In this document: piece by piece, positions 11,357-36,262 of the stretch
How the letters are laid out: the number at the start of each line of letters is the position of its first letter
Position numbering within the stretch: position 1 is the stretch's first letter
Made by a program: the position numbers and the translations under genes
Origin: Alphaproteobacteria bacterium
GTDB taxonomy: Bacteria; Pseudomonadota; Alphaproteobacteria; SMXQ01
Length of the DNA stretch: 45,698 bases
Reading direction: 5' to 3'
Assembly: GCA_009380075.1 (NCBI GenBank)
Contig: WHSO01000022.1
Location: 1 to 45,698 of the forward strand
Notes under the pieces: generated by a model
The model's input: only the letters and a program-made list of their open reading frames with translations
The model's database searches: none
Told to the model about the DNA's origin: nothing

Positions 11357-12445
11357 ATGACCATTACAATCATTTCCGCACGAGCAACGGGCCTTGCCCT
11401 GCTCGGCGCCGTGCTCGCCGTCCCGGCGGGTGGCGCGCTTGCCGATGCCGTAAGCGATTTCTACAAGGGGAACCAGGTCAAGGTCATCGTCGGCGGGACC
11501 GCCGGCGGCGGCTATGCGCCCTACTCGCGGATGCTTCAGCGCCACATGGGCCGCCATATCCCCGGCAAGCCGCAGATGGTGATCCAGTACATGCCCGGTG
11601 CCGGCGGCCTCACCGCCACCAACTTTATCGCCAATGCCGCGCCCAAAGACGGCACGGTCATAGGCGCGGTGCAGCGCTCTGTCGTGCGTCTCGGGCTGTT
11701 CGGCGGCAAGCGCGTCGCTTACGACCCACGCAAGCTGCAGTGGCTCGGTAGCCTCCATCAGGACGTGAGCGTCTGCGTGGCGTGGCATTCCTCTCCGATC
11801 AAGACCATTCAGGATGCGTTCGACCGCGAAAGCGTGATCGGTGCCATCAGCCCCAACAACGATACCGGACAATTCCCGCTGGTTCTCAACAATGTTTTGG
11901 GCACGAAGTTCAAGATCATCTTCGGCTACAAGGGGAGCTCCGGAATTACCCTCGCCATGGAACGTGGCGAGGTCGCGGGCCGCTGCGGCTGGTCGTGGGA
12001 ATCCCTCAAGAGCCAGAAGGGCGAATGGGTTCGCGACAAGAAGGTCAACGTCTTCGTCCTCTTGTCGCTGCGTAAGGTGCCGGACCTTCCCGGCGTGCCC
12101 CTCGCGACCGAATTCGCCAAGACCGAGGAACAGCGCAAGATCCTGGAATTCATCTTCGCCGAGCAGGCTATGGGCAAGCCCTTCATGCTGGCGGCCGAGG
12201 TTCCGAAGGACCGGGCCCGCGCTCTGCGCGCGGCCTTCGTCGAAACCTATAAGGACAAGGCGGCGCTCAAGGAAATGGCGGACCTCGGCCTCGAGGTCAT
12301 CCCGATGAGCGGCGAGGAGATGGACACGTTCATCGCCGAACAGATCGCCACGCCCGCGGGCATCGTCAACGCTGCCAAGAAAGCCATGGCCGTTCGCGGC
12401 GAGAAGGGCGGAGGCAAGGAAAAGAAACGGAAGAAGAGCGAGTAG
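11357..12445 (+). CDS. TctC/Bug-family periplasmic solute-binding receptor 1, lysine-rich tail
   Basis: 362 residues from the ATG at 11357 (GGGAGG six bases before). A signal peptide ends at about ALA29|DAVS. The mature protein shows the Bug-family marks: DFYKGNQVKVIVGGTAGGGY, GKPQMVIQYMPGAGG, an N-linked NVLGTKFKII segment, AMERGEVAGR and a late domain-II region. Bug proteins bind carboxylates (tricarboxylates, aromatic acids, amino acids) and hand them to TctA/TctB membrane proteins, which are absent here. The C-terminus ends in a basic tail, GGGKEKKRKKSE, not part of the Bug fold. Located between Rieske B and Rieske C (16 bases before C), so its ligand is plausibly a substrate of those oxygenases. 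Confidence 0.93.
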   Translation: MTITIISARATGLALLGAVLAVPAGGALADAVSDFYKGNQVKVIVGGTAGGGYAPYSRMLQRHMGRHIPGKPQMVIQYMPGAGGLTATNFIANAAPKDGTVIGAVQRSVVRLGLFGGKRVAYDPRKLQWLGSLHQDVSVCVAWHSSPIKTIQDAFDRESVIGAISPNNDTGQFPLVLNNVLGTKFKIIFGYKGSSGITLAMERGEVAGRCGWSWESLKSQKGEWVRDKKVNVFVLLSLRKVPDLPGVPLATEFAKTEEQRKILEFIFAEQAMGKPFMLAAEVPKDRARALRAAFVETYKDKAALKEMADLGLEVIPMSGEEMDTFIAEQIATPAGIVNAAKKAMAVRGEKGGGKEKKRKKSE

Positions 12446-12460
12446 AAGGGACCCGTATTC

Positions 12461-13696
12461 ATGGGACGGTACGGCGCATTGGAGCTTGCGGACCTCGATC
12501 CGGTTGGGCCGGGCACGCCCTCCGGACGCTATCTCCGGCTGTTCTGGCAGCCGGTGATGCGGCTCAAGGACCTGCCGCCGGGGCGGGCCAAGCCGCTCGA
12601 GATCCTCGATGAGAAGTTCACCATCTACCGGGGTGATGGTGGCGTGCCGCACCTCGTCCCCTATCGCTGTCCGCACCGGGGCACACCGCTGTCGCTTGGG
12701 TGGGTCGAGGACGATGCCCTGCGCTGCCGCTATCACGGCTGGAAGTTCGATCACACCGGCCAGTGCGTGGAGCAGCCGAACGAGGACAGGCCCTTCTGTC
12801 ACCGCATCGCGATGAAGAGCTATCCGACCCGGGAATATGCCGGATTCATCTTCGCCTATCTGGGCGAGGGCGAGCCGCCGCCCTTCGTTCGCTATCCGGA
12901 CCTCGACCGCCCCGGCGTCCTCATCGCCGATCCCGTTGAAGTGCTGCCGTGCACGTTCTGGAACCGCTTCGACAACGACCACGGCCACCGCCACTGGGTG
13001 CATCGCGCCACGGCGCTGCGGCGCAACCGGCCGGACGTGCTCGTGCTGCATCACGAGGCAGCGGAGGAAACCCCCTACGGTTGGCGAGGAGTCCGCATGC
13101 TCAAGGGCGACGGGCCGGATGTGGAGACATCCATGGGCGAGATCGTCAAGGGCGGGCGCGACCGCGCCGAAAGCCTGATGGGGCTCGCCAAATACACACA
13201 CTGGTTCATGCCCAACGCCCGCATGCTGTTCCAGCGCACTCGCGCCCGCGGGTTCGAGGGGCGCGAGCTGTGGGACACGAAGGTGGTCTGGACGGTGCCG
13301 GTGAACGACACCAGCCATGCCGCCTTCGACGTCACGCACACGCCGCTCGAGGGCGACGAAGCGGTAGCGTATGAAAAGAGCCGGACAGAACAGCAGGAGG
13401 CCGAGGCCGAAACCCGCTGGGACCTCGCCGAAAAGGTGCTCGCCGGGGAGATGACGCTGGAGGACCTGCCCGACGATATCGGCGGCTACACCAGCTTCAC
13501 CATCGAGGACTACTGCACCCAGGTGGGACAGGGTTCGGTGCGCGGCCGGGGCAGGGAAATTCTGGCGAAGGGAGACGAAGGGCCGGTGTTCCAGCGGCAC
13601 CTCTGGCTGCGCGAGGTGAACGCGATGACGGAAGGCCGTCCGCTCACCGATTGGACGCTGCCGGCAGAGACCTTCACGACGCAGACGAACCTGTGA
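12461..13696 (+). CDS. Rieske non-haem iron oxygenase, alpha subunit (paralogue C)
   Basis: 411 residues, MGRYGALELADLDPVGPGTP, 16 bases after the TctC stop. Rieske ligands Cys70, His72, Cys89 and His92 are intact, and the iron site is DNDHGHRHWVH, with His replacing the Pro of A, B and D beside the metal ligands. It has the longest loop (about residues 208-235, carrying GPDVETSMGEIVKGGRDRAE) before THWFMPNARML, where A has only a few residues. Such a loop near the substrate pocket likely changes specificity. Part of the GntR-headed operon. Needs an external ferredoxin/flavin reductase. Confidence 0.93.
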   Translation: MGRYGALELADLDPVGPGTPSGRYLRLFWQPVMRLKDLPPGRAKPLEILDEKFTIYRGDGGVPHLVPYRCPHRGTPLSLGWVEDDALRCRYHGWKFDHTGQCVEQPNEDRPFCHRIAMKSYPTREYAGFIFAYLGEGEPPPFVRYPDLDRPGVLIADPVEVLPCTFWNRFDNDHGHRHWVHRATALRRNRPDVLVLHHEAAEETPYGWRGVRMLKGDGPDVETSMGEIVKGGRDRAESLMGLAKYTHWFMPNARMLFQRTRARGFEGRELWDTKVVWTVPVNDTSHAAFDVTHTPLEGDEAVAYEKSRTEQQEAEAETRWDLAEKVLAGEMTLEDLPDDIGGYTSFTIEDYCTQVGQGSVRGRGREILAKGDEGPVFQRHLWLREVNAMTEGRPLTDWTLPAETFTTQTNL

Positions 13697-13697
13697 A

Positions 13698-13726
13698 CCG
13701 GCGCGACCAACGCGGCGGCGCGCCGG
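13698..13726 (+). other. Intercistronic hairpin between Rieske C and D
   Basis: CCGGCGCG (13698-13705) is the exact reverse complement of CGCGCCGG (13719-13726), giving an eight-pair GC stem with a 13-base loop directly after the paralogue C stop. No T-run follows, and the next gene starts 20 bases later. It is more likely an mRNA-stability or processing element than a full terminator. Confidence 0.45.
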
Positions 13727-13745
13727 CAAAGTAGCGGAGGAAGGC

Positions 13746-14969
13746 ATGGCGCGTTTCGGAAAACTGGAATTTGCCGACTTGGAAGCGGTTGGCCCGGGCA
13801 CGCCGGCGGGACGCTACCTGCGCCTGTTCTGGCAGCCGGTAATGCGGCTCAAGGACCTGCCGCCGGGCCGGGCCAAGCCGCTGGAGATCCTGGGGGAGAT
13901 GTTCACCCTCTACCGGGCGGAGGACGGCACGCCCCACGTCACCGCCTACCGCTGCCCGCATCGCGGCACGCCGCTGTCTCTGGGCTGGGTCGAGGGCGAG
14001 TCCCTGCGCTGCCGCTACCACGGTTGGCGCTACGACGGCACCGGGCAGTGTGTCGAGCAGCCGAACGAGGACCGTCCGTTCTGCGAGCGCATCCACCTGC
14101 GCAGCTACCCGACGCGGGACTACGCAGGGCTGATCTTCGCCTATCTCGGCGACGGCAAGCCACCGACCTTCCGCCGCTATCCCGATCTCGACCGGCCGGG
14201 TGTCCTCGTGACGGATCCGGTGGAAGTGCTGCCGTGCACCTACTGGAACAAGTTCGACAACGACCATGGCCATCGCCCCTGGGTGCACCGTGCCACCGCA
14301 CTGCGCCTCAACCGCAAGGACATCCTCGTGATCCGGCACGAATCGGTCGAGGAAACGGCCTATGGCTGGAGCGGCCAGCGGGTGGTCAAGGGTGAAGAAG
14401 ACGATACGGCGGCGACGTCGCTCGGCACCGTCAAGGGCGAACGGTCGTCGGCCCAAAACGGACTCGGCCGGGCGCGCATGACCCACTGGTTCATGCCCAA
14501 CGTGCGTCTGTTCTTCCAGCCGACGCGCGCCAAAGGGTTCCAGGGCCGCGATATCTGGGATACCAAGATCGCCTGGACCGTGCCTATCAATGATTCGAAA
14601 CACGCCGCCTTCGACGTCACCCTGACGCCGGTGGAGGGCGAGGAAGCGCGCGCCTATGCCGCCGCCCGTGCCACCCAGGAAGAAGAGGCCGAATCGCGCT
14701 GGGACCTCGCCGAAAGGATCCTTGCGGGCGAGATGACGCTCGAGGATCTGCCGGCCGACATGAGCGCCTATACCAGCTTCACCATCGAGGACTACTGCAC
14801 CCAGGTGGGCCAGGGGCCGATCCGCGGGCGGGGGCGGGAACATCTGGCGGCGAGCGAAGGCCGGCTCGTGCTCCTGCGGCAGTTGTGGTTGCGGGAGGTC
14901 AATGCCCTGGTCGAGGGCCGGCCGCTCAAGGACTGGACCGTGCCGGTGTCGCCGCTGGCCGGAATGTGA
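13746..14969 (+). CDS. Rieske non-haem iron oxygenase, alpha subunit (paralogue D)
   Basis: 407 residues, MARFGKLEFADLEAVGPGTP, with GGAGGAAGG just before the ATG. Rieske ligands are at Cys70, His72, Cys89 and His92; iron site DNDHGHRPWVH; terminal TIEDYCTQVGQG as in A and C. Its N-terminal third is almost identical at DNA level to paralogue A, but its catalytic domain is closer in layout to C, including a long loop (EEDDTAATSLGTVKGERSS) before THWFMPN. The gene therefore looks mosaic, with a Rieske domain homogenised with A and a distinct catalytic domain. Followed after 64 bases by a TctC receptor gene. Confidence 0.93.
   Translation: MARFGKLEFADLEAVGPGTPAGRYLRLFWQPVMRLKDLPPGRAKPLEILGEMFTLYRAEDGTPHVTAYRCPHRGTPLSLGWVEGESLRCRYHGWRYDGTGQCVEQPNEDRPFCERIHLRSYPTRDYAGLIFAYLGDGKPPTFRRYPDLDRPGVLVTDPVEVLPCTYWNKFDNDHGHRPWVHRATALRLNRKDILVIRHESVEETAYGWSGQRVVKGEEDDTAATSLGTVKGERSSAQNGLGRARMTHWFMPNVRLFFQPTRAKGFQGRDIWDTKIAWTVPINDSKHAAFDVTLTPVEGEEARAYAAARATQEEEAESRWDLAERILAGEMTLEDLPADMSAYTSFTIEDYCTQVGQGPIRGRGREHLAASEGRLVLLRQLWLREVNALVEGRPLKDWTVPVSPLAGM
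13813..14125 (+). repeat. Near-identical direct repeat shared with 8981-9293 (Rieske D copy)
   Basis: Partner of the repeat in paralogue A; about four mismatches in 313 bases and no gaps. Beyond 14125 the two genes drop to roughly 75-80 percent identity by eye, with a brief identical patch around the CTATCTCGGCGACGGCAAG stretch. Confidence 0.8.
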
Positions 14970-14978
14970 ACGACGCGT

Positions 14979-14997
14979 GGCGGCATTGCGTGCCGCC
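14979..14997 (+). other. Intercistronic hairpin between Rieske D and TctC receptor 2
   Basis: GGCGGCA (14979-14985) pairs exactly with TGCCGCC (14991-14997) around a five-base loop, nine bases after the Rieske D stop. No T-run follows. It may protect the 3' end of the Rieske message or reduce read-through into the receptor gene. Confidence 0.4.
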
Positions 14998-15033
14998 GAC
15001 GATTTAATCGAGTTGAAACAGGGAGATAATGCC

Positions 15034-16146
15034 ATGACCATCGTTACGACACGCTGCATTGGTATGCTTATCGCAATGGCGGCCATAATCGTCCTGCCGC
15101 ATGGACCCGCCACCGCCGATGCGGTCGGCGATTTCTACAAGGGCAAGAGCATCCGGTTGATCATCAGCACCGGTGCCGGCGGCGGTCAGGACCAGACCGC
15201 GCGTATCGTCGGCCGCCACTGGACCAATCACGTTCCCGGCAGTCCCACCTTCGTTCCGACCAACATGCCGGGCGGCGGGCACCTGCTCGCCACCAATCAC
15301 CTCTATAACGTGGCGCCAAAGGACGGCACGGCCGTGGGTGCGATCATTCCGTCGATCGTCATGCACCAGGTTCTGGGCCGCAAGGGCGTGCAGTACGACG
15401 CCGCCAAGTTCCAGTGGATCGGATCGAGCACGCTCAGCAATTCTATGGTGTTCGTCTGGCACACGACCGGCGTGAAGACGATTCAGGACGCGAAGGCGAA
15501 GTCGGTGATCATGGGCGGCACCGGCGCGGCGTCGAACAGCGTGCGTTACCCGGCGATGCTCAACAATGTGCTGGGGACGAAGTTCAGGGTCATCATGGGC
15601 TACCGCAGTACCAACCAGGCGGATCTTGCCATGGAGCGCGGCGAGGTCCAAGGCCGTGCCGGGGCCACCTTCAACACTATGCTGGCGACCCAGGGCGAAT
15701 GGATCAAGACTGACAAGATCAATATCCTGGCCCAGATCGGCCCGGCCAAGGAGCCCGGGTTCGAGAAGATACCCCTGGTGACCGAGCTCGCCAAGGACAA
15801 GGCCAGCCGCGACGTCCTTCAGGTGTTCTGCGACGACATCGGTCTCGGCCGGCCGTTCATGGTCGCGCCGGGCGTGCCGGCCGACCGCGTGGCGGCATTG
15901 CGCACGTCTTTCGATGCGACCATGAAGGATGCGGCCCTCCTCGCGGATGCCAAAAAGTCACGCCTCGACATTTCACCGACGAGCGGCGACAAGATACAGA
16001 AACTGGTCGAGAATATGATCCGTATGAGCCCGGACGTGCTGACGCGCGTCAAGGCGGCGCTGGAAACCAAGGATGCCATCGCCGGCAAGGCGAAGGGTTC
16101 GAAAGGCGGCAAGAAGAAAAAGAAGAAGGAGAGTTCGGGGGGCTGA
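15034..16146 (+). CDS. TctC/Bug-family periplasmic solute-binding receptor 2, lysine-rich tail
   Basis: 370 residues, ATG at 15034 after AGGGAGA. Signal peptide ends about ATA28|DAVG. Bug-family marks: DFYKGKSIRLIISTGAGGGQ, HVPGSPTFVPTNMPGGG, NNVLGTKFRVIMGY, AMERGEVQGRAG. The C-terminus carries a basic tail around KGGKKKKKKESSGG, longer than the fold requires. The overall plan is closest to receptor 1 and to the minus-strand receptor at 16756, suggesting duplication within the region. Ends 63 bases before the HbpS-like gene. Ligand unknown; an aromatic or aliphatic carboxylate is expected from the family and from the Rieske neighbours. Confidence 0.93.
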   Translation: MTIVTTRCIGMLIAMAAIIVLPHGPATADAVGDFYKGKSIRLIISTGAGGGQDQTARIVGRHWTNHVPGSPTFVPTNMPGGGHLLATNHLYNVAPKDGTAVGAIIPSIVMHQVLGRKGVQYDAAKFQWIGSSTLSNSMVFVWHTTGVKTIQDAKAKSVIMGGTGAASNSVRYPAMLNNVLGTKFRVIMGYRSTNQADLAMERGEVQGRAGATFNTMLATQGEWIKTDKINILAQIGPAKEPGFEKIPLVTELAKDKASRDVLQVFCDDIGLGRPFMVAPGVPADRVAALRTSFDATMKDAALLADAKKSRLDISPTSGDKIQKLVENMIRMSPDVLTRVKAALETKDAIAGKAKGSKGGKKKKKKESSGG

Positions 16147-16209
16147 TAGACTGCCCTGCGCCGCCGAACCGGCCATGATGAAACATTTTTGTATCAATTA
16201 GAGGACCAC

Positions 16210-16647
16210 ATGACCGATCTGACCCTCGACACCGCGAATAAGATCGTCGCTGCGGCCATCGCCGCGGGGCGGAACAAGAAACTCAAGCTCCTGGCCGTGG
16301 CCGTGCTGGATTCGCGCGGCGCGCTCAAGAGTTTCGGGGCGGAGGACGGCACCAGCCTCAAGCGGGGGGAGATTGCTGTCGGCAAGGCCATGGCGGCGCT
16401 CGACTTCGGTATCGGCACCCGTGCGATCGCCAAGATGGCGAAGGACCGCCCGTTCTTCATCACCTCGGTCGCCGGCTCGATCGGTGGGCCTTTCGTCCCG
16501 GTGCCGGGTGGCGTCCTGGTCAAGGACAAGGCCGGCGTGATTGTCGGGGCGGTCGGAATTTCCGGCGATGTCTCAGACAACGACGAAGCCGCAGCGGTCG
16601 CCGGCATCAAGGCCGCCGGGCTAGTGGCCGACCCCGGTAGCGACTAG
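16210..16647 (+). CDS. GlcG/HbpS family protein
   Basis: 145 residues from the ATG at 16210 (AGAGGA upstream). The pattern LTLDTANKIVAAAIAAGRNK, VAVLDSRGALKSF, IAVGKAMAALDFG, and PVPGGVLVKDKAGVIVGAVGISG is typical of the GlcG/HbpS (DUF336) fold. Members bind haem or accompany glycolate, diol and propanediol catabolism genes, and many are of unknown function. No signal peptide is seen. It is the last gene of the Rieske/TctC run. It might be a small binding or accessory protein for the oxygenases; that is inference only. Confidence 0.88.
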   Translation: MTDLTLDTANKIVAAAIAAGRNKKLKLLAVAVLDSRGALKSFGAEDGTSLKRGEIAVGKAMAALDFGIGTRAIAKMAKDRPFFITSVAGSIGGPFVPVPGGVLVKDKAGVIVGAVGISGDVSDNDEAAAVAGIKAAGLVADPGSD

Positions 16648-16677
16648 GACCGGCGGCACGTCCGTAACGGTGTCGCG

Positions 16678-16707
16678 GGTGGGCGGCGACAGGTATCGTC
16701 GCCCACC
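16678..16707. terminator. Bidirectional terminator-like hairpin between convergent genes
   Basis: GGTGGGCGGCGA (16678-16689) pairs with TCGTCGCCCACC (16696-16707): twelve pairs with one G-U and a six-base loop. It lies between the convergent HbpS-like gene and TctC receptor 3. There is no strong T-run on either side, but position and stability suit a shared terminator. Confidence 0.6.
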
Positions 16708-16755
16708 GGAGTCCCGGCGCATCTTATGTCGTTGAAGAGCGGCAGGCGCGGCGTG

Positions 16756-17853
16756 TCATTCCTTTTTCTTCTTCTTTTTCTTTTTTGCCCCTTTCCGCGC
16801 CTCGGCACCTTTGGCGGTGATAGCCACCTTGACCCTGTCCCGCACGCTTTGGGGCGTCGCTAGTATTTCCTCCACCAGCGCCTGGAGACGCTCGCCCGCC
16901 ATCGAGCGAATATCCATTTTCTGCTTACGCGCTTCCGCCAGGAACTTCGGCGCAACGACGGTCTTCTCATAGGCCTGGCGCAGCGCGGCGAGGCGCTCTT
17001 TCGGGACGCCCGGTGCGACCGCAAAGGGCCGCCCGACGATGACGTTGTTCGTAAGAAAACGCGCGATCGATTCCTTGTCGGGATCGCCTTTGACCACGTC
17101 GGTCAACAGCGGCACGTTCGGCAGTTCGGGCTCGCGCTCCAGACCGACCTGGATCAGGAAGGTGAGCTTGTTCTCCTTGAGCCAGTCCGGCTTGGTCGCC
17201 TTCCAGCTCGCAAGCGGATTGGCTCCGCGCGCATGAATCTCGCCCCGCTCCATCGCGAGGTTCATCTCGTTGCCGCCGGGGTAGGCGTAGATGATCTTGA
17301 GCTTGGCGTTCAGCAGATTGTTGTAAGCGGTGGGCAATTGTGCAGCGATTGAGCCAATTCCCGTGGCGCCCACGATGACCTGACGGGACTTCAGGTCGTC
17401 CAGGGACTTGATCCCGCTGGCAGTCCACGTCGCGAAGGTCTGGTTGGAATAGCTGATATTACCGACCCAACCGAATTTGGAGACGTCCGTTTCCAGACTT
17501 TTTCCGCTCAGCGCCTGATGCATGGGAATGCCCTGGTTGACGATAGTCATGACCGAGCCGTCCGTCGGGGCCGACCGCGCGACGTAGTTCACCGCCTTGA
17601 TGCCCCCGCCGCCGGGCATGTTGGAAGCTACCATGGTCGGGTTGCCGGGGATGAAGTTCACGATGTGACGGGCGAGAAGCCGCGCATAGGTATCGTAGCC
17701 TCCACCCGGGCTCGCGAAGATGATCATGCGCATCTGGCGGCCCGCGTAAAACTCCTTTACGTCCGCTGCATTCGCGGGCGAGGTGTGAATGCTCGCCATA
17801 GCTCCCGCGAACAGGCAAATACCGGCAACGGCCGTCATGGGCAGTGATTTCAT
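16756..17853 (-). CDS. TctC/Bug-family periplasmic solute-binding receptor 3, poly-lysine tail
   Basis: 365 residues when started at the ATG at 17853, preceded by GGGAGG at six bases; an upstream in-frame ATG (17877) lacks this. Signal peptide ends about ANA29|ADVK. Family marks: EFYAGRQMRMIIFASPGGGY, GNPTMVASNMPGGGG, NLLNAKLKIIYAYPGG, AMERGEIHARG. The tail reads GAKKKKKKKKE, eight consecutive lysines. It is a single-gene unit convergent with the Rieske operon and divergent from the dehydrogenase cluster at 18310. No TctA/TctB partner is present. Confidence 0.93.
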   Translation of the reverse strand: MKSLPMTAVAGICLFAGAMASIHTSPANAADVKEFYAGRQMRMIIFASPGGGYDTYARLLARHIVNFIPGNPTMVASNMPGGGGIKAVNYVARSAPTDGSVMTIVNQGIPMHQALSGKSLETDVSKFGWVGNISYSNQTFATWTASGIKSLDDLKSRQVIVGATGIGSIAAQLPTAYNNLLNAKLKIIYAYPGGNEMNLAMERGEIHARGANPLASWKATKPDWLKENKLTFLIQVGLEREPELPNVPLLTDVVKGDPDKESIARFLTNNVIVGRPFAVAPGVPKERLAALRQAYEKTVVAPKFLAEARKQKMDIRSMAGERLQALVEEILATPQSVRDRVKVAITAKGAEARKGAKKKKKKKKE

Positions 17854-20261: not shown

Positions 20262-20290
20262 CTTCACCCGTCGAACCCGGGAGGCCGCCG

Positions 20291-21514: not shown

Positions 21515-21530
21515 TATGCGGTGGCCATAT

Positions 21531-25417: not shown

Positions 25418-25478
25418 GTTGGGATTGGAGCATCCACGAGAACGCGTGCACGCCGCCAAACTAGGGAAACCACGGCCG

Positions 25479-27458: not shown

Positions 27459-27501
27459 GTCGAAACCCGCGAAGAATCCTGATCATCAATAGGGGGGCAA
27501 C

Positions 27502-28620
27502 ATGCTGAATCGACGCATTCCACTCATCGTCGCCGCTTTGGCTTTTCCGGCGACCGTCCTCGCAAGTGGTACGGCGGTCGCATCGGTCGCGGAATTCTAC
27601 ACCGGGAAGACCGGCACCATCATCGTCAGTTCGGGGGGCGGGAGCTATACCGCGATAGCGCGAATCGTCGCGCCGTACATGACGAAATACCTGCCCGGGA
27701 ATCCCACATTCATCGTGAAGAACATGCCCGGTGCCGGCCACGTTCTGGCGACGAACTTCATGTATCGCCAGGCGCCGAAGGACGGGACCCATATCGCGAC
27801 GGTGGGCAGCGCCATTCCCTTGCATCAGGTGCTTGACGGCAAGGGCGTGCGCTACGACGCGCGCAAGTTCAACTGGCTCGGCACCACGGGAATCTCCAAC
27901 CAGATGGCGATCATCTGGCACAAGGCCGGCGTCAAGACGATCGCCGAAGCCAGGAAGAAGGAAGTCATCGTCGGCGCCACGGGGATCGGAGCCGGTTCGG
28001 TCATCTTTCCCACGATCCTCAACAACCTGATCGGCACGAAATTCAAGATCATCATCGGTTACACCAACGCGAACACCATCGACCTCGCGATGGAACGGGG
28101 CGAAGTGGAATCGCGCCAGAGCTATTCCTACGGTTCTTTCAGGATCAATCACCCGACCTGGGAAAAGGAAGGCAAGGTTCATTTCCTGTACCAAGTCGGA
28201 ACCAGCGTGGATGAAGGTGTGCCCGGCATTCCGCTGATGACCGACCTCGCGGAGAACGACGAGCAGCGCAAGATCCTGCAGCTGATGACGGCGCCGTCCG
28301 TTCTCGGGCGGTCTTATCTGGCGCCGCCCGACCTCCCGGCGGACCGGCTTGCGGCCCTGCGCGAGGCCTTCGCCAAGTCCCTGAGCGACCCCGCGTTCAA
28401 GGCGGAAATGGACAAGCGCGGGCTCGATCTCTATTCGGCATCGTGGGAACGTGTCACTCAGCTCGTGAACAGCATCATCGACACCCCGCCCGATATCGTC
28501 GCCAAGGCGAAAGCCGCGCTCGAAGTGCGCGGCGCGGTGAAATGCCAGGACGTCATGGCATCCGACCCGGACCGCTGCGGCAAGAAAAAGAAGAAGCGGA
28601 AAAAGAAGAAAAAGGAATAG
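27502..28620 (+). CDS. TctC/Bug-family periplasmic solute-binding receptor 4, poly-lysine tail
   Basis: 372 residues, ATG at 27502 after GGGGGG. Signal peptide ends about AVA27|SVAE. Family marks: AEFYTGKTGTIIVSSGGG, GNPTFIVKNMPGAGH, NNLIGTKFKIIIGYTN, AMERGEVESR. Two cysteines flank an acidic-basic stretch near the end (VKCQDVMASDPDRCGK), followed by KKKKKRKKKKKE. The paired cysteines could form a small disulfide loop just ahead of the tail, a feature not in the other copies. Downstream is a hairpin, then the VOC gene. No membrane partner is encoded nearby. Confidence 0.93.
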   Translation: MLNRRIPLIVAALAFPATVLASGTAVASVAEFYTGKTGTIIVSSGGGSYTAIARIVAPYMTKYLPGNPTFIVKNMPGAGHVLATNFMYRQAPKDGTHIATVGSAIPLHQVLDGKGVRYDARKFNWLGTTGISNQMAIIWHKAGVKTIAEARKKEVIVGATGIGAGSVIFPTILNNLIGTKFKIIIGYTNANTIDLAMERGEVESRQSYSYGSFRINHPTWEKEGKVHFLYQVGTSVDEGVPGIPLMTDLAENDEQRKILQLMTAPSVLGRSYLAPPDLPADRLAALREAFAKSLSDPAFKAEMDKRGLDLYSASWERVTQLVNSIIDTPPDIVAKAKAALEVRGAVKCQDVMASDPDRCGKKKKKRKKKKKE

Positions 28621-28627
28621 CCGCCGA

Positions 28628-28669
28628 GGCGGGAATCGCCGGGCAGGCACTTTTCTGCCCCGATTCGCC
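28628..28669 (+). terminator. Hairpin downstream of TctC receptor 4
   Basis: GGGCAG (28641-28646) pairs with CTGCCC (28655-28660) and, beyond a CC bulge, AATCG (28634-28638) pairs with CGATT (28661-28665). A short CCCTTTGATC follows. It starts eight bases after the receptor stop and about 80 bases before the VOC gene, so it probably ends or attenuates the receptor transcript. Confidence 0.5.
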
Positions 28670-28749
28670 CCTTTGATCAGTCCCGCCGGGCGTATAGAGT
28701 AATGGGAACGAATGCCTGTTTGGCGCACGCATCACTATGGGAGGGCCGC

Positions 28750-29154: not shown

Positions 29155-29203
29155 CGGGGCGTCTATCGTCCTGTCGTTCCATTCTGACAAACGGGAGGCT
29201 TCG

Positions 29204-30265
29204 ATGCGCATGATCGCACGCGTGATTGCTGGCGCCATGGCCGTGGCTGTGCTGGCTCTGGCCGTGCCGCAGGCGACGGTCGCCAAGGATTTTTACGAAG
29301 GAAAAAGCCTGACCCTGTTCGCCGGCTATCCGCCGGGGGGCGGTGTCGACAACGAAATGCGCCTAATCGCGCAGTTCTTCGGCAAGTTCATTCCCGGCAA
29401 GCCCAACATCGTCGCCAAGAACATGCCCGGCGCGGGCGGCATGCTGCTGGGCAACTATATGTTCAGCAAGGCCGCGCCCGACGGGCTGACGCTGGGCATG
29501 CCGGGGCGCAGCGGTTTCCTGCTGGCCAACTCCATCGGCCACAAGGGAGCGCAATACGACCTGCGCAAGTTCACCTATGTCGGCAGCGCGGTGAGCACCA
29601 ATTCGATCCTGTGGCTGCGCAAGAGCACGAACATCCGCACGCTGGACGAGTTGAAGAAGGCGAAAAAGGAAATCGTCCTCGGCGGCCTCAATTCGCGTTC
29701 GCAGAACGTGGTGGTACCGCGGGTGCTCAACAAGTATGAAGGCTTTCCCTTCCGCACCGTCTACGGCTATCCCGGGTTCCATGCCGTGCTCATTGCGCTG
29801 GAACGCGGCGAGGTCGACGGGCTGTTCTCCCATGAGGGCTCCATCCAGGGCACGCGTCCGGACATGATCGCTTCGGGCATTGTGGTCCCGATCTTCCAGA
29901 CCTTCCCGATCGAACCCAACCTGCCGGTCATGAGCAGCTTCGTGACCGATCCGCGCGAGCGCGACCTGTTGCGCCTGCTGAACGCCCCCAGCCGCATCGG
30001 CCTGCCCACTCTCGGGCCGCCCGGCATGAACGCCGAGGCGACGAAGATCCTGCGCGCCGCCTTCCAGAAAATGGCGGCCGACAAGACCTTCCGCGAAACC
30101 GCCGACAAGCGTGGCATGCACGTGGCCGACCCGGCGACGGGCGAGGAATTGCAGGCCTTCATCGCGGAAAACCTCGTCTCGGTTCCCGAAGATGTGGTGA
30201 AGGAGTATCTGTCCTATACCGAACGCAAGAAGTCGAAGAAGAAAAAGAAGAAAAAGCAGGAGTAG
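29204..30265 (+). CDS. TctC/Bug-family periplasmic solute-binding receptor 5, poly-lysine tail
   Basis: 353 residues from the ATG at 29204 (CGGGAGG upstream). Signal peptide ends about TVA27|KDFY. Marks: DFYEGKSLTLFAGYPPGGG, GKPNIVAKNMPGAGG, LNKYEGFPFRTVYGYPG, ALERGEVDGL. Compared with receptors 1-4 the ligand loop is altered (PPGGGVDNEMRL), so a different ligand is likely. The tail is RKKSKKKKKKKQE. A strong terminator follows 21 bases downstream, so the receptor and probably the VOC gene form a unit that ends here. Confidence 0.93.
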   Translation: MRMIARVIAGAMAVAVLALAVPQATVAKDFYEGKSLTLFAGYPPGGGVDNEMRLIAQFFGKFIPGKPNIVAKNMPGAGGMLLGNYMFSKAAPDGLTLGMPGRSGFLLANSIGHKGAQYDLRKFTYVGSAVSTNSILWLRKSTNIRTLDELKKAKKEIVLGGLNSRSQNVVVPRVLNKYEGFPFRTVYGYPGFHAVLIALERGEVDGLFSHEGSIQGTRPDMIASGIVVPIFQTFPIEPNLPVMSSFVTDPRERDLLRLLNAPSRIGLPTLGPPGMNAEATKILRAAFQKMAADKTFRETADKRGMHVADPATGEELQAFIAENLVSVPEDVVKEYLSYTERKKSKKKKKKKQE

Positions 30266-30286
30266 CAAGCGGGTTACACACGGAAG

Positions 30287-30311
30287 CGGCGGGGCATGCC
30301 CCGCCGTTTTT
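30287..30311 (+). terminator. Rho-independent terminator after TctC receptor 5
   Basis: CGGCGGGGCA (30287-30296) is followed immediately by its exact complement TGCCCCGCCG (30297-30306), and then five T residues (30307-30311). This is a perfect GC-rich stem with a small loop and a T-run, the clearest intrinsic terminator in the window, 21 bases after the stop codon. Confidence 0.85.
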
Positions 30312-30437
30312 CGTTCCTCGCGGGATGACCCGCTGCGCATGTCGCTTGGTCCGTGCCGGGCCCATGACCTAGTATGGTCGGGACACGCGGGTGATGCGCC
30401 CGCCGAAAAAGAAGAAAAACATCCGGGGGAGACGTCC

Positions 30438-30491
30438 ATGGCCGCAAATCGGCGGCACGATTTCATCGCCGTTGGCGACGTTCGCATCTGA
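30438..30491 (+). CDS. Possible 17-codon leader peptide upstream of the acyl-CoA dehydrogenase
   Basis: ATG at 30438 is preceded by a strong GGGGGAGA ribosome-binding site and encodes 17 residues (MAANRRHDFIAVGDVRI) ending at TGA 30489-30491. The TGA lies in the GAGGG ribosome-binding site of the acyl-CoA dehydrogenase, 10 bases before its ATG, so translation of the two would be coupled. There is no amino-acid run suggesting attenuation. It may be chance; the well-placed ribosome-binding site is the main support. Confidence 0.35.
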   Translation: MAANRRHDFIAVGDVRI

Positions 30492-30501
30492 GGGTTTGGC
30501 G

Positions 30502-31659
30502 ATGGATTTCGACCTCCCTGAAGAAATGCGCCTGTTGCAGAACACCCTGCGGCGTTTCGTTGATGGCGAGCTCATCCCACTCGAAGGCCGGTCCCTCGAC
30601 GGCCAGAAGCTGAAGCCGGAGATCGAGTCGCACCTGGTGGCGCGCGCCAGGGAGCTCGGTCTGTGGCTGATCGACCTGCCCGAGGAATACGGCGGGCAGG
30701 GCCTCGGCCTTCTCGCCCGCGCCGTGGTGTGGTCCGAGCTCGGCCGAACGACGGCGCTGCCGACGCGCCACGTACCGATCCTCGGCCCCGACATCCGTCC
30801 GGTGATGTACTTCCTGAGCGACGAGATGAAGGAACGCTATCTCTATCCCACGGTGCGCGGGGAGCGGCGGTCCTGCTTCGCCCAGACGGAGCCCGACGCC
30901 GGCTCCGACCCGGGGTCGATGCGCACCACGGCAGTGCGTGACGGCGCGGATTACGTCGTCAACGGCGTCAAGCGCTTCATCACCGGCGCCGACGAGGCGG
31001 ACTACATGCTGCTGATGGCGGCGACCGACCGCAGCAAGGGATCGCGTGGCGGCATTTCCTGCTTCATCCTCGACATGGACACGCCGGGCGTGCGGCTCGC
31101 GGGGTTCCACGAGACGATGACGGGGGAACACCCGTGGGAGATCGTGCTCGACAACGTCCGCATCCCCGCGACGCATCTGATCGGGGAGGAGGGCGGGGGG
31201 TTTGCCCTCGGCCAGAAATGGCTCGGCATCGGCCGGGTCAAGCAGGGGGCGCGTGCCTTGGGCGTCACCCGCCGGTGCCTCGAGCTTGCCGCCACCTACG
31301 CCAGGCAGCGCGTGACCTTCGGCAGGCCCCTGGCCGAACGCCAGAGCGTGCAATGGCCCCTCGTGGACAGCTACGTCGCGCTCGAAGCGGCGGAGCTGCT
31401 GGTGTACCGTACGGCATTGAAGTTCGACCGGGGCCTGGACGTTCGCCACGATGCCTTCACGGTGAAGCTCTATTGCACCGAAATGGCGTGGCGGGCGGCG
31501 GAGATGTGCCTCCAGGTGCACGGCGGCATCGGCCTCACCACGGACCTGCCGGTGGAGCGGCTGTGGCGCGACCAGCGCTCTCACCTCATCACCGAAGGTG
31601 CGCCGGAAATCATGCGCATGGTGCTCGCGCGCCATGTGCTCAACCAGTTCGGTTCGTAA
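30502..31659 (+). CDS. Acyl-CoA dehydrogenase family protein
   Basis: 385 residues from ATG 30502 (GAGGG at eight bases), MDFDLPEEMRLLQNTLRRFV. The three-domain acyl-CoA dehydrogenase fold is evident: N-terminal helices, LPEEYGGQGLG, the FAD-binding AQTEPDAGSDPGSMRTTA and GFHETMTGEHPWEIVLDNV, then ARQRVTFGRPLAERQSVQW and CLQVHGGIGLTTDLPVERLW. The catalytic Glu is in LITEGAPEIMRMV. It oxidises an acyl-CoA to the enoyl-CoA, passing electrons to ETF. The neighbouring amidohydrolase, 10 bases on, suggests a shared pathway for a carboxylic acid. An upstream open extension begins at 30391 but lacks a ribosome-binding site. Confidence 0.93.
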   Translation: MDFDLPEEMRLLQNTLRRFVDGELIPLEGRSLDGQKLKPEIESHLVARARELGLWLIDLPEEYGGQGLGLLARAVVWSELGRTTALPTRHVPILGPDIRPVMYFLSDEMKERYLYPTVRGERRSCFAQTEPDAGSDPGSMRTTAVRDGADYVVNGVKRFITGADEADYMLLMAATDRSKGSRGGISCFILDMDTPGVRLAGFHETMTGEHPWEIVLDNVRIPATHLIGEEGGGFALGQKWLGIGRVKQGARALGVTRRCLELAATYARQRVTFGRPLAERQSVQWPLVDSYVALEAAELLVYRTALKFDRGLDVRHDAFTVKLYCTEMAWRAAEMCLQVHGGIGLTTDLPVERLWRDQRSHLITEGAPEIMRMVLARHVLNQFGS

Positions 31660-31669
31660 AGGAGTCCTG

Positions 31670-32719
31670 ATGCGTGCCATAGACGCCGACGCCCATGTGA
31701 TCGAGAGCATGTCCACCTGGGACCTCGTCGCCCGGGAGGCGCCGCGCGACATGCCGATGATCACTCAGCGCGTCTCCGGCCGGGAGATCCTCAACAGCGA
31801 GGGCCACGTCCAGCAGGAGTTCTGGGTCATCAACGGCCGGGTCCACAACCGCGACCGCAACGTCGGAGCGAACACGACCGAGGACTCGCGCGAGATGCGC
31901 GACGTCACCGCCCGGCTGGAGCATATGGACGCGCTGGACATCGAGGTCCAGGTCCTGTTCCCGACCCTGCTGCTGCGGCCGATTGCGGACAACGCGCGCC
32001 TCGATTACATCCTGTGCAAGAGCTACAACCGCTGGCTCGCCGGCATCTGGAAGCAGGGCGGGGGACGCCTGCGCTGGGCGGCCGCGCCGCCGCTGCGGGC
32101 CATGGACAAGCTCGGCGACGAATTGCGCTTCGCCCGGGACAATGGCGCCTGCGCCGTGTTCATGCGGCCGCTCGAATGCGAACTGCCCCTCAGCGACGAG
32201 TATTTCTTTCCGCTCTATGAGCTTGCGAGCGAGCTCGACCTCGCGATCTGCGTGCACCTCGGCAACGGCAGTTTCGCGGTGCACGACTTCTATACGCGCG
32301 ACACCACGTTCACGAAGTTCAAGCTGCCCATGCTGGGCGCGCTCCATTCGCTGCTGATGGCGGAGATCCCGGCGAAATTCCCCAGGCTGCGCTGGGGCGT
32401 CATCGAGGCCAGTTCGGACTGGCTGCCCTTCCTGGTTGCCGACCTGCGCCAGCGCTTCCTCAAGCAGGGCAAGCGCCTGCCGGAGAACGTGCTGGCCGCG
32501 AACCGGGTCTATGTCACCTGCCAGACATACGACGACCTGCCCAACGTGCTGCGGGTGGCGGGGGAAGACAACCTCGTGATCGGCACCGACTACGGCCACG
32601 CCGATTTCTCGAGCGAGATCGAGGCCATCCGCCTGTTGCAGGACAAGGACGGCGTCTCGCGCGACGCCGTGCGGAAGATACTCTGGGACAACGCCAAGGC
32701 GCTTTACGGCCTCGCCTGA
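31670..32719 (+). CDS. Amidohydrolase-2 family protein, copy 4
   Basis: 349 residues from ATG 31670, just after AAGGAG, MRAIDADAHVIESMSTWDLV. It is a clear paralogue of copies 1 and 2: DADAH metal motif, QVLFPTLLLRPI, YNRWLAGIWKQGGGRLRW, a His in LAICVHLGNGS and the Asp in LVIGTDYGHADFSSEIEAI. The start is ten bases after the acyl-CoA dehydrogenase stop. Closest to copy 2 by eye. Function: probable zinc-dependent decarboxylase or hydrolase, substrate unknown. It is followed by the haem-oxygenase-like gene at 59 bases, possibly the same transcript. Confidence 0.86.
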   Translation: MRAIDADAHVIESMSTWDLVAREAPRDMPMITQRVSGREILNSEGHVQQEFWVINGRVHNRDRNVGANTTEDSREMRDVTARLEHMDALDIEVQVLFPTLLLRPIADNARLDYILCKSYNRWLAGIWKQGGGRLRWAAAPPLRAMDKLGDELRFARDNGACAVFMRPLECELPLSDEYFFPLYELASELDLAICVHLGNGSFAVHDFYTRDTTFTKFKLPMLGALHSLLMAEIPAKFPRLRWGVIEASSDWLPFLVADLRQRFLKQGKRLPENVLAANRVYVTCQTYDDLPNVLRVAGEDNLVIGTDYGHADFSSEIEAIRLLQDKDGVSRDAVRKILWDNAKALYGLA

Positions 32720-32778
32720 TCGAATGGATGCAGGATATCGCCCCCGTGACGAGGGGCGGAAACGACTGGAGGGACAAC

Positions 32779-33531
32779 ATGGAATCGCCTGAAGACTTCG
32801 AACGTCACATGGCCCAGACGATCTGGGACAACCGCTGGAAAATGCCGAGCGCCTATGAGGTGTTCACCCGGAACCACATGTGCCGCGACGGCGCCGCCGT
32901 CTATGCCCTGGAACACTGCGTTTTCGCCGCGCATTTTCCGCGCTGGTTCGGCTCGGTGGTTGCCAATTGCCCGCATCTCAAGGCGCGGCGCTACATGATC
33001 GAGAACATGTACGTGGAAGAAGTCAACGACCCGACCATCTCTAACGGCCACTACGAAAGCCTCGTGGACTTCGCCGTCGCCCTCGGCCACGCGCGCGAGG
33101 CGGTCTATGCCTACAAGGGCAAGATCTATACCCGCCTCGCCATCGCCTACTGGGACCGGGCGACCCGCGCCTGGCCCTGGCTCGAGGGTTTCGCTGCCGT
33201 CGCCGGGCTCGAAGCGGCCCGCGGGCCCGCCGTGCTGAAGCTCGGCAACGCGCGTCCCAACAGCCGCGCCGTGTTCAAAGCGCTGAACCTGCCCGACGCC
33301 GCGATGTCGCATTGGCAGGCAGCGGAAACCGCCGACTACGGCGAGGACGGCCACGGCGACATGACGCTCAAGATCCTGTCCGAATACGCCACCACCGAAG
33401 AGCAGCAGAGCCGAATCCTCGAGGTTCTTGCCGAGACCATGGAGGTCCGCCGGCACCATTTCGACTGCATTGGCCGCGATTGCCTGAAGGCGGCCGGCGT
33501 GCCCCTGGAAACGGTCGGGGCCGCCGCCTGA
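32779..33531 (+). CDS. Haem-oxygenase-like (TENA/PqqC fold) protein, candidate di-iron oxidase
   Basis: 250 residues from ATG 32779 (GGAGGG upstream). It is all-helical with the marks of the haem-oxygenase-like di-iron family (CADD, UndA, SznF): E80/E81 in NMYVEEVND, His91 in SNGHYESL, Glu145, His178 in MSHWQAAE, and His192 in GEDGHGDM. Spacing Glu145-to-His178 matches the family, but the last helix has extra residues between His178 and His192. Such enzymes use iron and O2 to cleave or oxidise amino-acid or fatty-acid substrates, often on aromatic precursors. TenA and PqqC themselves are different enzymes of the same fold; PQQ synthesis genes are absent. Placed next to the acyl-CoA dehydrogenase and amidohydrolase. 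Confidence 0.7.
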   Translation: MESPEDFERHMAQTIWDNRWKMPSAYEVFTRNHMCRDGAAVYALEHCVFAAHFPRWFGSVVANCPHLKARRYMIENMYVEEVNDPTISNGHYESLVDFAVALGHAREAVYAYKGKIYTRLAIAYWDRATRAWPWLEGFAAVAGLEAARGPAVLKLGNARPNSRAVFKALNLPDAAMSHWQAAETADYGEDGHGDMTLKILSEYATTEEQQSRILEVLAETMEVRRHHFDCIGRDCLKAAGVPLETVGAAA

Positions 33532-33543
33532 CCATTGCAGAGT

Positions 33544-33567
33544 GGGCGGCGGCATCGGCCGCCGCCC
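33544..33567. terminator. Bidirectional hairpin between convergent genes
   Basis: GGGCGGCGGC (33544-33553), loop ATCG, and GCCGCCGCCC (33558-33567) form a perfect ten-pair stem. It sits between the stop codons of the convergent haem-oxygenase-like gene and TctC receptor 6. No T-run, but position and strength fit a shared terminator. Confidence 0.65.
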
Positions 33568-33576
33568 CGCCGCGTC

Positions 33577-34842
33577 CTACTTACAGGCTATGGTCTTCGC
33601 CGCCGTGCCCTGGTAGGCGAAGTCGCAGGCGAGACCGGCCTTGAGCTGCTTGCGCTTCGCCGCCTTGCCGTCGATCGTCACCTTTGTGCCGCTCGACGAC
33701 ACGTTGAGGCGGCCCTTCTTCGCGCCGGCCTCGAACGACACCTTGCGTCCATCGTTCTCGACCTTGGTGATGGCGCCCTTCACCTTTTCGATGGGCCCGG
33801 CGACCTTCGCCATTTCGGTGCGGTCCGTCTTCTGCGACGCTTCGACCGCGACCTTGACGATGGCGGCGGGGATTTTCTCCAGCCGTTCGATGCGCGCCTT
33901 CATGGCGTCGCCCGACATGGGGTCGAGCACCATTTTCTGGCGGTCCATATCGGCCTTGAGCTTGGCATCTTCATAGGTCCTGACGAAGGCGGCCTTGAGT
34001 TGCGTCGCCTGCGCCGGCGCGATGTCCGGGGGAGCGACGAAGGGGCGCGTCCACGAGTCAGGGGCAAGAAGGAGCTCCAGCACCTGGCGGTCCTCCGGTG
34101 TCCTGGTGAACTCGGTGATCAGCGGCACGTCCGGCATGTGGCGCTTCTCGGCCAGCGAGATATCGAGCAGGAAGGTGATCTTCTTGCCGGGGATCCAGTC
34201 CGGGCGGCTCGAGTTGGTGCTCGATATGGTCGAAGCGCAGCGGCCCTGGATCTCTCCCCGCTCCATCGCCAGATGCAGCGCGGCCGAGCCCGGATAGCCC
34301 GCAATCACCTTGATCTTGGTGCCGACCAGGTTGTTGAGGATCACCGGGGTCGTCACGGTCATCGACCGCCCGTTGGTCCCGCCGACGATGAACTGCTTTT
34401 CGAGGATATCCTTTGTCGTCCGGAAGGGCGTCTGATGCCAGGCGACGCAATAGGTGCCTTCGCTGCCCAGGCTGCCGAGCCAGGTAAATTTCGATGCCGT
34501 GAACTTGGCGTTCTCGACACCAAGAACGGAGGACGTCGGGACCTCGCGCCCCAGCGCGCCGATCTCGCGGCCGTCCTTGCGGGCGGAGTTGTACAGGTAG
34601 TTCGCCAGCTTGACGCTGCCCGCGCCCGGCATGTTCTTGACGACAATATCCGGATTGCCGGGAATGAGACGCCCGTAATGACGGGCAAAAGTGCGCGCGT
34701 AACTGTCGTAACCGCCGCCCGGCGCGTAGCCCACGTAAAGCGTGATCTGCTTCCCCTTGAAGAAATCTTGGGCGTCTGCGGTTGCCGTACAGGCGACGAG
34801 TGCCGTCAGGACAATCGCCGTACGGAAAGTGAACGTCGTCAT
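33577..34842 (-). CDS. TctC/Bug-family periplasmic solute-binding receptor 6 with an extra C-terminal domain
   Basis: 421 residues from the ATG at 34842 (GAGGAGG upstream); upstream in-frame ATGs have no ribosome-binding site. Signal peptide ends about ADA24|QDFF. Bug marks: FFKGKQITLYVGYAPGGGY, GNPDIVVKNMPGAGS, NNLVGTKIKVIAGYPG, AMERGEIQGR. Unlike its relatives it has no lysine tail. Instead about 75 residues follow, rich in beta-forming and charged sequence (EKVKGAITKVENDGRKVSFE ... KGRLNVSSSGTKVTIDGKAA) and ending with two cysteines (ACDFAY, TIACK), reminiscent of a small beta-barrel. Divergent from the ABC-type receptor gene. The added domain is a noteworthy oddity. Confidence 0.9.
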   Translation of the reverse strand: MTTFTFRTAIVLTALVACTATADAQDFFKGKQITLYVGYAPGGGYDSYARTFARHYGRLIPGNPDIVVKNMPGAGSVKLANYLYNSARKDGREIGALGREVPTSSVLGVENAKFTASKFTWLGSLGSEGTYCVAWHQTPFRTTKDILEKQFIVGGTNGRSMTVTTPVILNNLVGTKIKVIAGYPGSAALHLAMERGEIQGRCASTISSTNSSRPDWIPGKKITFLLDISLAEKRHMPDVPLITEFTRTPEDRQVLELLLAPDSWTRPFVAPPDIAPAQATQLKAAFVRTYEDAKLKADMDRQKMVLDPMSGDAMKARIERLEKIPAAIVKVAVEASQKTDRTEMAKVAGPIEKVKGAITKVENDGRKVSFEAGAKKGRLNVSSSGTKVTIDGKAAKRKQLKAGLACDFAYQGTAAKTIACK

Positions 34843-35089
34843 GGTTGCCTCCTCTGCGGCCTTCGTCGTTCCTGACCCCGGGGGCCGGGCCTCGCCGGGC
34901 GTGGCCGCTTGCCGCTGCACGGCGCTTGATTAATAAGTATAGCGCCGACGGATGTGCGCGGCGACGTCCGTCGGAAAGGGAAAACTGTCTTTCCCGGTGG
35001 TTTTTTCTTTCGCACGCCGTCGCATTGCCCGAAAATGCGGTCCGAACGCGCCCTCAGGCGCGACCAACGATATCTAGGGGGATAGCACC
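34843..35089. promoter_or_regulatory. Divergent promoter region with a GGCGCT...AGCGCC inverted repeat
   Basis: This 247-base gap between receptor 6 and the ABC-type receptor contains CGGCGCT (34920-34926) and AGCGCCG (34941-34947), exact inverted arms of seven bases around an AT-rich 14-base centre (TGATTAATAAGTAT). Such a symmetric site in a divergent region is a likely regulator-binding site. I see no gene here. Confidence 0.5.
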
Positions 35090-36262
35090 ATGCCACCGAC
35101 GACTTCCGTCCTTCGCGCGCTCGCCATCGGCGCCGCCGTCACCGTGGCCCTGCCTGCCGGGGCGGCGGACCTCCCCAAGGCCACCGAGAAGATGCTGGCG
35201 GCGCTGAAGCTCGACGCCGGCATCCTGAGCGGCCTCGACAAGGAACTCGCCGTACCGCAGGCCTGGGTCGATGCGGCGAAGAAGGAAAAGGAAGTCATCA
35301 TCTATACGTCGACCCGCCCCAAGGCGTGGGAGAAGATGCATGGAATCCTGAAGGAACGCTATCCGTTCATCAATTTTCGCCATGAGGAAACCAACACGGC
35401 GGAACGGCGCTGGGTGCGTCCGCTCGCCGCCTTCACCCAGGGCAGGATCATCACCGACGTCGTGATGGACATGTCGGGCAGCGTCTTCAAATTCCGCGAC
35501 GCGGGCGCGCTGATCCCGCTTAACGACCTGCCGGGCTACAAGAATTTTCCGGAGGAAGTGCGCCAGAAGGACCACATCGCCGTTGCCGTGCGCTCGCGTT
35601 ACTGGTGCATGTCCTATAATACCAAGAAGATCAAGGCGGCGGATCTGCCCAAGACATGGGACGACGTGCTGACCAATCCGGCCTTTGCCGACAAGAAGTT
35701 GGCGCTGCTTAACCGCTCCAACCTCTGGCTCCTCAACGTCTGGACGGTGAAGGGCGACACCTGGGGCAAGCAGTACACCCGCGATCTCTTCACCAAGCTG
35801 TCGCCACAACTGCGCAAGGAAGGTCTCAACGCCGGGATCACCCTCGTCGGCATCGGTGAAGCCAACGCGGCCATCCCCTCGGCGATGATGCGGGTCGGCC
35901 CCGAGGCGAAGAAGGGGGCGCCCGTCGCCTTCCATTGTCCGGAGCCGGTGCCCTACACCATTTCCGACATGGCGATCCTCAAAGGCAGCCCGCGCACCAA
36001 CGCGGCCAAGATCTTCGTCAACTGGTTCCTGTCCAAGGAAGGGCAGATCGCGCAATACTGGGGAAATTACTCGCCGCCGTCACACAAGGAATTGCTGCGC
36101 AAGGAGTTCCTGTTCTACCCCGAAGCCGTCGCCGGCAAGAAGATCGCGGTCCTGGACGACCGGGCGGAGGCCCTGTCCAAGCAGGTGATCGAGGAATGGA
36201 ACAAATACTGGATCGGCGCCGGCGGACCGGGGCCGAAGAAGAAAAAGAAAAAGAAGAACTAG
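35090..36262 (+). CDS. ABC-type periplasmic solute-binding protein (family 1), poly-lysine tail
   Basis: 390 residues, ATG at 35090 after AGGGGGATAG. Signal peptide ends about AGA25|ADLP. The mature protein resembles family 1 binding proteins of the iron/spermidine type: KEKEVIIYTSTRPKAWEKM, RYWCMSYNTKKIKAADLPKT, WDDVLTNPAFADKKLAL, NWFLSKEGQIAQYWGN. The tail is GPGPKKKKKKKN. The frameshifted gene at 6843 is its closest relative in the window (shared MLAALKLD, RYWCMSYN, SKEGQIAQ blocks), so two loci encode this receptor type, only one intact. No permease or ATPase genes accompany it. Ligand unknown. Confidence 0.92.
   Translation: MPPTTSVLRALAIGAAVTVALPAGAADLPKATEKMLAALKLDAGILSGLDKELAVPQAWVDAAKKEKEVIIYTSTRPKAWEKMHGILKERYPFINFRHEETNTAERRWVRPLAAFTQGRIITDVVMDMSGSVFKFRDAGALIPLNDLPGYKNFPEEVRQKDHIAVAVRSRYWCMSYNTKKIKAADLPKTWDDVLTNPAFADKKLALLNRSNLWLLNVWTVKGDTWGKQYTRDLFTKLSPQLRKEGLNAGITLVGIGEANAAIPSAMMRVGPEAKKGAPVAFHCPEPVPYTISDMAILKGSPRTNAAKIFVNWFLSKEGQIAQYWGNYSPPSHKELLRKEFLFYPEAVAGKKIAVLDDRAEALSKQVIEEWNKYWIGAGGPGPKKKKKKKN

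Follow-up and report, generated by a model that had tools for sequence, protein, structure and literature searches.

Receptor-specific positive charge in three forms on TctC and ABC-type solute receptors of one family of uncultured Alphaproteobacteria

TctC/Bug receptors and ATP-binding cassette (ABC)-type receptors of an alphaproteobacterial draft genome (GCA_009380075.1; 3.54 Mb, 162 contigs, 97% complete) carry a receptor-specific, lineage-specific and selected positive charge. The charge comes in three forms: disordered poly-lysine tails (K-tails), an alternative basic C-terminal domain (here the second module), and a gain of lysine with loss of aspartate and glutamate at variable columns of the receptor bodies. 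The stretch at the centre of this work, here called the window, comprises positions 1 to 45,698 of WHSO01000022.1, part of contig C139. The two terminal modules prefer orphans, that is, receptors encoded apart from a TctA permease gene, and other exported proteins are less affected. We tentatively regard lineage-specific receptor charging, which would retain orphan receptors at a polyanionic envelope near shared permeases, as the best explanation, and hold it with slightly less than even confidence.

For the window's genome we analysed 1.06 Mb of DNA, fetched around every Pfam TctC match and the poly-lysine patterns, in which genes were called with a simple codon model and TctC homologues were collected with our own profile (n = 103). 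All genomes are drafts, the gene calls and signal-peptide rules are our own, and relatives were sampled around their TctC genes. A protein was scored as K-tailed when at least six lysines stood among its final 15 residues, an outcome with a chance of 7e-4 at the 8% lysine of receptor bodies (binomial). In the first gene set for the window's genome, 45 of 103 TctC receptors were K-tailed, as were 3 of 104 other exported proteins, all three of them ABC-type receptors, and none of 667 others. Across six genomes of the family, K-tails ended 72 of 254 TctC and 5 of 18 ABC-type receptors, and none of 1075 cytosolic, 241 membrane or 158 other exported proteins; one of 69 ambiguous proteins reached the threshold. 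The tails are thus far from being equally common on unrelated proteins, the outcome that the original prediction had named as fatal to it. At the nucleotide level, a pattern of five lysine codons occurred at 121 overlapping places in the genome, all within the fetched stretches, which merged into 43 runs. Receptor gene ends accounted for 40 of these (37 TctC and 2 ABC-type C-termini, together the 39 in frame, plus one frameshifted TctC end), and the remaining three lay inside a TctC, inside another protein and antisense. The antisense run, six AAR codons at L094:1176-1193, corresponds to poly-phenylalanine in a membrane protein. In the TctA-linked TctC gene at L062:5325-6455 (minus strand) the frame is shifted before the tail, and the poly-lysine codons, out of frame, read RRRKRKSRAR....

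Codon use within the tails indicates that they are selected as protein. AAA made up 24% of tail codons and 10% in the bodies of the same genes, AAA-AAA pairs numbered 5 compared to 13 in shuffles (P = 0.004), and the longest AAG run averaged 2.75, against 3.6 in shuffled tails and 5.1 at body codon frequencies, with none of 2000 simulations as low as observed; the earlier description of the tails as AAG/AAA mixes and not a simple repeat is therefore borne out. Lysine and arginine are also exchanged between genera with charge retained, as in GPGPKKKKKKKN in the window and GSGPKGKRRKRGRRGKGKKKK in a receptor of the same Pfam families in G005. Because the interspersed AAA shortens AAG runs and the K/R swaps keep the charge, selection acts on the protein, and these two observations, together with the absence of tails from other genes, led us to reject a codon-repeat artefact. 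As read from the codons, the pattern marks out a feature of the protein that is protected from slippage of repeats. C-terminal residue biases across 1,582 bacterial genomes, reported to relate to expression (PMC7246954), speak for a general C-terminal effect on expression or stability, by which terminal lysine would favour expression in bacteria at large; AAG repeats grown by slippage are the other form of this explanation. We nevertheless consider it highly improbable, given the tail-free cytosolic and other exported proteins, the short AAG runs broken by AAA, the charge-preserving swaps between orthologues, and a pattern of six lysines plus stop that occurs 11 times in the window's genome and no more than twice in any of 397 other genomes of the phylum. 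The 48 K-tailed genes ended in TAG (27), TGA (15) or TAA (6), and all sampled genes in TAG (275), TGA (475) or TAA (124).

Within the window, the six lysine-rich tails that had been predicted are all present in the sequence at the given ends, five on TctC receptors and one on an ABC-type receptor. The TctC receptor at 11357-12445 (plus strand) ends in ...GEKGGGKEKKRKKSE (12398-12442) and lies among Rieske-oxygenase-like genes with no TctA nearby. Two TctC/Bug-like orphans assigned by our own profile follow, one at 15034-16146 (plus) with the tail ...KAKGSKGGKKKKKKESSGG (16087-16143), whose letters at the end are KGSKGGKKKKKKESSGG, and one at 16756-17853 (minus) with ...KGAKKKKKKKKE (16759-16794). 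The orphan TctC receptors at 27502-28620 and 29204-30265 (both plus) end in ...CGKKKKKRKKKKKE (28576-28617) and ...KKSKKKKKKKQE (30227-30262), and the ABC-type extracellular solute-binding protein at 35090-36262 (plus) ends in GPGPKKKKKKKN (36224-36259). Three of these receptors passed the PF03401 cut-off of 27 bits (11357, 40.6; 27502, 35.4; 29204, 29.7 bits), and the one at 16756 reached 20.6 bits, under the cut-off, and is homologous by our own profile. The receptor ending at 16146 and a further one at 33577-34842 (minus) had no PF03401 match at E 0.001, yet both are homologous by our own profile. The ABC-type receptor matched SBP_bac_1, SBP_bac_6 and SBP_bac_8 at 48.7, 39.8 and 36.6 bits, above cut-off. 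In the window, no TctC had a TctA within 2.5 kb.

The claim that the tails follow complete folds agrees with a structure model of 27502-28620, which is confident to about residue 350, with the predicted local distance difference test score (pLDDT) falling from above 90 to 60 and then 45 across the tail, so that the tail is predicted to be disordered. Most TctC N-termini are hydrophobic by a heuristic signal-peptide rule, start codons being uncertain in some, and none of the 45 K-tailed TctC has a lipobox. A Braun-type lipoprotein with a C-terminal lysine linkage was rejected, since there is no lipobox and the last residue of many tails is E, S, N or Q. A sorting signal of the PEP-CTERM or LPXTG type was likewise rejected, because the tails, which in the model follow a soluble fold, are preceded neither by a long hydrophobic stretch nor by a shared motif. 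Directly before many tails stands a cysteine pair, roughly C-x(6-10)-C (27502-28620, L068:4268-5386, L083:9486-10595, L102:3545-4651), possibly a disulfide loop capping the fold. At 6843-8001 an ABC-type receptor resembling the intact one at 35090-36262 is split by a frameshift: its start and signal peptide lie in one frame, the remainder in an open frame at 7072-8001. It does end in AKKR, as noted earlier, within a terminal DAKKR; with 3 lysines in its last 15 residues, however, it falls below our tail criterion. At 8914-14969, four paralogous Rieske-oxygenase-like genes, named from a look at the sequence, are interleaved with a K-tailed receptor gene.

The five K-tailed TctC receptors stand as originally described, but the sixth TctC in the window, at 33577-34842 (minus), had been missed; in place of a lysine tail it has the second module, a basic C-terminal domain of about 70 residues and net charge +10 (33580-33804), modelled as a beta-barrel. 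A search with the whole-receptor model gave TctC 4x9t and the terephthalate receptors TBP and TphC as best PDB folds (E 2e-16). The second module, basic and with two conserved cysteines (consensus ...GKxxxxxVSGSRTKxTIxGKxAKRxxxKAGMTCxxxYxGxxxxAxxxxCK), ends about a third of the genome's roughly 100 TctC receptors and terminates several ABC-type receptors as well; its profile has 57 matches in the window's genome. Loci of the domain, on receptors or free-standing, include L061:1535-2914, L212, L214, L216, L218, L219, L220, L222 and L228 besides the one in the window. In 102 of 103 cases it stood 0-2 residues from the C-terminus, and in none of the 103 did it share a protein with a K-tail. The added charge is alike, about +8.5 for the second module and about +7.9 for the K-tail. 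The module was modelled confidently as a small beta-barrel of six to seven short strands forming a compact C-terminal unit; the predicted shape is similar to OB/SH3-like small beta-barrels, but comparison with Pfam, NCBIfam and PDB sequences gave no significant match, and by this comparison the module appears to be undescribed so far. It was present in 11 of 11 genomes of the family and in none of 50 genomes from other families of the class. Two adjacent TctC receptors of G005 (L337:1066-4111, minus) carry it twice in tandem.

The second module also occurs free-standing, in four genomes, as proteins of 80-101 residues, most with a signal peptide, encoded beside TctC genes and, in two of the four, close to TctA as well. 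On one strand of contig C3 the order is TctA, TctB-like, TctA, TctB-like, three free modules and a TctC with the module, the TctB-like label being based on size, membrane nature and position. Such free proteins beside genes of the tripartite tricarboxylate transporter (TTT) type leave room for a docking role. A specific tag, by which a shared membrane component (TctB, TctA or another adaptor) recognises both the tail and the second module, would also fit the orphan preference of the terminal modules. We judge it improbable, since the net charge of TctA is equal (about 0 per 100 residues) in tailed and untailed genera alike, with no charge-complementary TctA seen, nothing in the tail sequence is specific beyond its basic residues, and charging of the whole body exceeds the need of a tag.

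The charge extends to the receptor bodies. With the final 20 residues excluded, TctC bodies had a net charge per 100 residues of +3.9 in G000, +3.6 in G001, +7.4 in G002, +11.0 in G005 (L329-L348, at 52% GC) and +6.4 in G010, compared to +0.8 in G003 and +0.5 in 42 rhizobial homologues; for module-bearing TctC these values include most of the second module. With that module removed, the bodies of the three terminal classes in the window's genome were alike, at +8 to +10 per 290 residues. Bodies of ABC-type receptors, scored without the SBP_bac_5 oligopeptide receptors, had +3.2 (G000) and +8.3 (G005) per 100 residues. Strictly defined exported non-receptors, in sets that are small in the relatives and hold some false positives, had +0.4 (G000), -0.6 (G001), +1.1 (G002), +2.8 (G005), -1.1 (G010) and +0.9 (G003). 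A general adaptation to acid or of the periplasm was rejected, as other exported proteins were shifted little or not at all. Lysine gain and Asp/Glu loss were confined to variable and middle columns of TctC bodies: the lysine share went from 4.7% to 5.0% in the conserved third of columns and from 6.1% to 10.3% in the variable third.

Such a surface-only change speaks against an effect on the binding pocket. It thereby counts against electrostatic steering, in which a positive surface and tail would speed the capture of anionic carboxylates. The ligands of TctC are carboxylates (PMC5812351) and the fold neighbours are terephthalate and dicarboxylate receptors, but the conserved columns, expected to include the pocket, are unchanged, and steering leaves the C-terminal placement of the charge and the orphan bias unexplained; it strikes us as a poor candidate. 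Charge on variable surface columns, a tail predicted to be disordered, and a repertoire of 103 TctC by our own profile would all suit colloidal stability, in which like charge stops aggregation or cross-assembly of at least 100 similar, abundant receptors and the tail is a natural solubility tag. Poly-lysine solubility tags are in use in protein engineering. Bug proteins are reported to be among the most abundant in Bordetella pertussis extracts (PMC5812351). However, either sign of charge would serve this end, yet only positive charge was gained (five genomes, four genera), 59 Pfam-detected TctC of the tail-less genus g3 do without it, and the orphan bias is not predicted, so that we think this explanation unlikely, if less so than steering or a docking tag.

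The original prediction had connected the tails with receptors that lack their own membrane genes. When receptors with a same-strand TctA no more than 2.5 kb away were counted as TctA-linked and the others as orphans, the window's genome had 40 orphan and 4 linked receptors with a K-tail, 31 and 2 with the second module, and 14 and 10 plain ones (Fisher against plain, p = 0.003 for the K-tail and p = 0.002 for the second module, values that are optimistic because paralogues are non-independent and contig ends hide some neighbours). The connection thus exists as an enrichment and is not absolute.

Tails and second module mark one family of uncultured Alphaproteobacteria. Both occur in G001, G010 and G005 of the same family, and tailed orthologues were found in the genera g1, g4 and g5, so that the expectation of tails in close relatives was borne out there; it failed in genus g3 (G003), where none of 32 TctC examined had a K-tail. 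Named homologues with tails came from the metagenome-assembled genomes (MAGs) 13_May_SF_Bin34, SFB_Oligo_Co_118, Ww571 and B40T1L10, and rhizobial and other named homologues (38-56% identity to the query) had none, as in the pair ...FDCKALVKDAKLCAPAKKKKKKSG in the window's own genome and ...FDCAKLVKDAKLCEESK in a Bradyrhizobiaceae MAG. Mapped on a tree built from 217 receptor bodies, the terminal state, in three classes, required 43 changes compared to 102 with labels shuffled, indicating that it is inherited but has changed many times. The K-tail required 28 changes against 60 shuffled, a count slightly blurred by a few receptors with scattered K/R ends scored as K-tailed; for the second module the figures were 19 and 55. 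In 86 of 95 cases, a receptor and its nearest neighbour from another genome agreed in terminal state. The shared selected role first proposed for tails on two receptor families is strongly supported by their receptor specificity, C-terminal position and conservation between genera, and further by codon-repeat avoidance, the second basic module and surface lysine enrichment.

In the explanation that we tentatively prefer, positive charge would attract the receptors to a polyanionic phase of the envelope; candidates are the inner membrane with its anionic outer leaflet, peptidoglycan, and some polymer of the periplasm or cell surface. Orphans sharing a few TctAB-type permeases would thereby be retained by the cell and become concentrated, in two dimensions, at the site of those permeases, and the second module, which genes next to TctC and TctBA also encode as a free exported protein, would be the same adaptor in folded form. 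We favour attraction over simple solubility because the charge is of one sign, positive, and confined to receptors, because the terminal modules are biased towards orphans, and because a tail can be replaced by an equally charged domain. Several points weigh against it. About a sixth of orphans (14 of 85) have neither module, and TctA-linked receptors are body-charged as well and some are tailed (4 of the 44 K-tailed TctC are linked). No anionic partner or surface was identified, no search for partner proteins with acidic runs having been made, and TctA has no compensating negative charge, which leaves docking to it by net charge without support. Some other periplasmic proteins of G005, such as a D-Ala-D-Ala carboxypeptidase and a cytochrome c, are strongly basic, and part of the charge effect may therefore be a general periplasmic trend; that the tails belong to the mature exported protein is itself predicted from the genes. 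A bolder form of receptor charging, which we consider possible but doubtful, is a polycationic layer, in which two independent modules and surface lysines would bind at least 100 kinds of receptor, mostly orphan, to an anionic envelope matrix. Receptor choice would then be uncoupled from dedicated transporters, with many receptors feeding few shared permeases.

Engineered poly-lysine tags and supercharged proteins share with these receptors a short, disordered poly-lysine C-terminus or a positive surface on an unchanged fold, but the tails described here are natural, receptor-specific and inherited throughout one bacterial family. Basic membrane-associating tails of cytosolic proteins are likewise polybasic, disordered ends that could bind anionic lipid; unlike them, the present tails are on exported proteins with no lipid anchor or lipobox. 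In the open-access literature on polylysine tails, receptor charge and solubility tags we found no report of the trait. Expansions of orphan Bug/TctC receptors have been described in Bordetella, Cupriavidus and Rhodoplanes (PMC5812351; PMC5994714). They resemble the present genome in a large TctC repertoire, few TctAB genes and many orphans beside catabolic genes, but differ in that most orphans here have a basic terminal module and charged bodies. The Rhodoplanes paper on these receptors does not speak of C-terminal extensions, of lysine or of charge, and the passages on C-termini found in a review of Bug/TctC receptors deal with other proteins.

It has long been an open question by what means orphan TctC/Bug receptors, in their tens to hundreds, function without dedicated membrane partners (PMC5994714, PMC5812351), and a removable, receptor-specific C-terminal module enriched on orphans offers a handle on it. 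The natural positive supercharging of one exported functional class also bears on crowding of the periplasm, on protein retention and on protein engineering.

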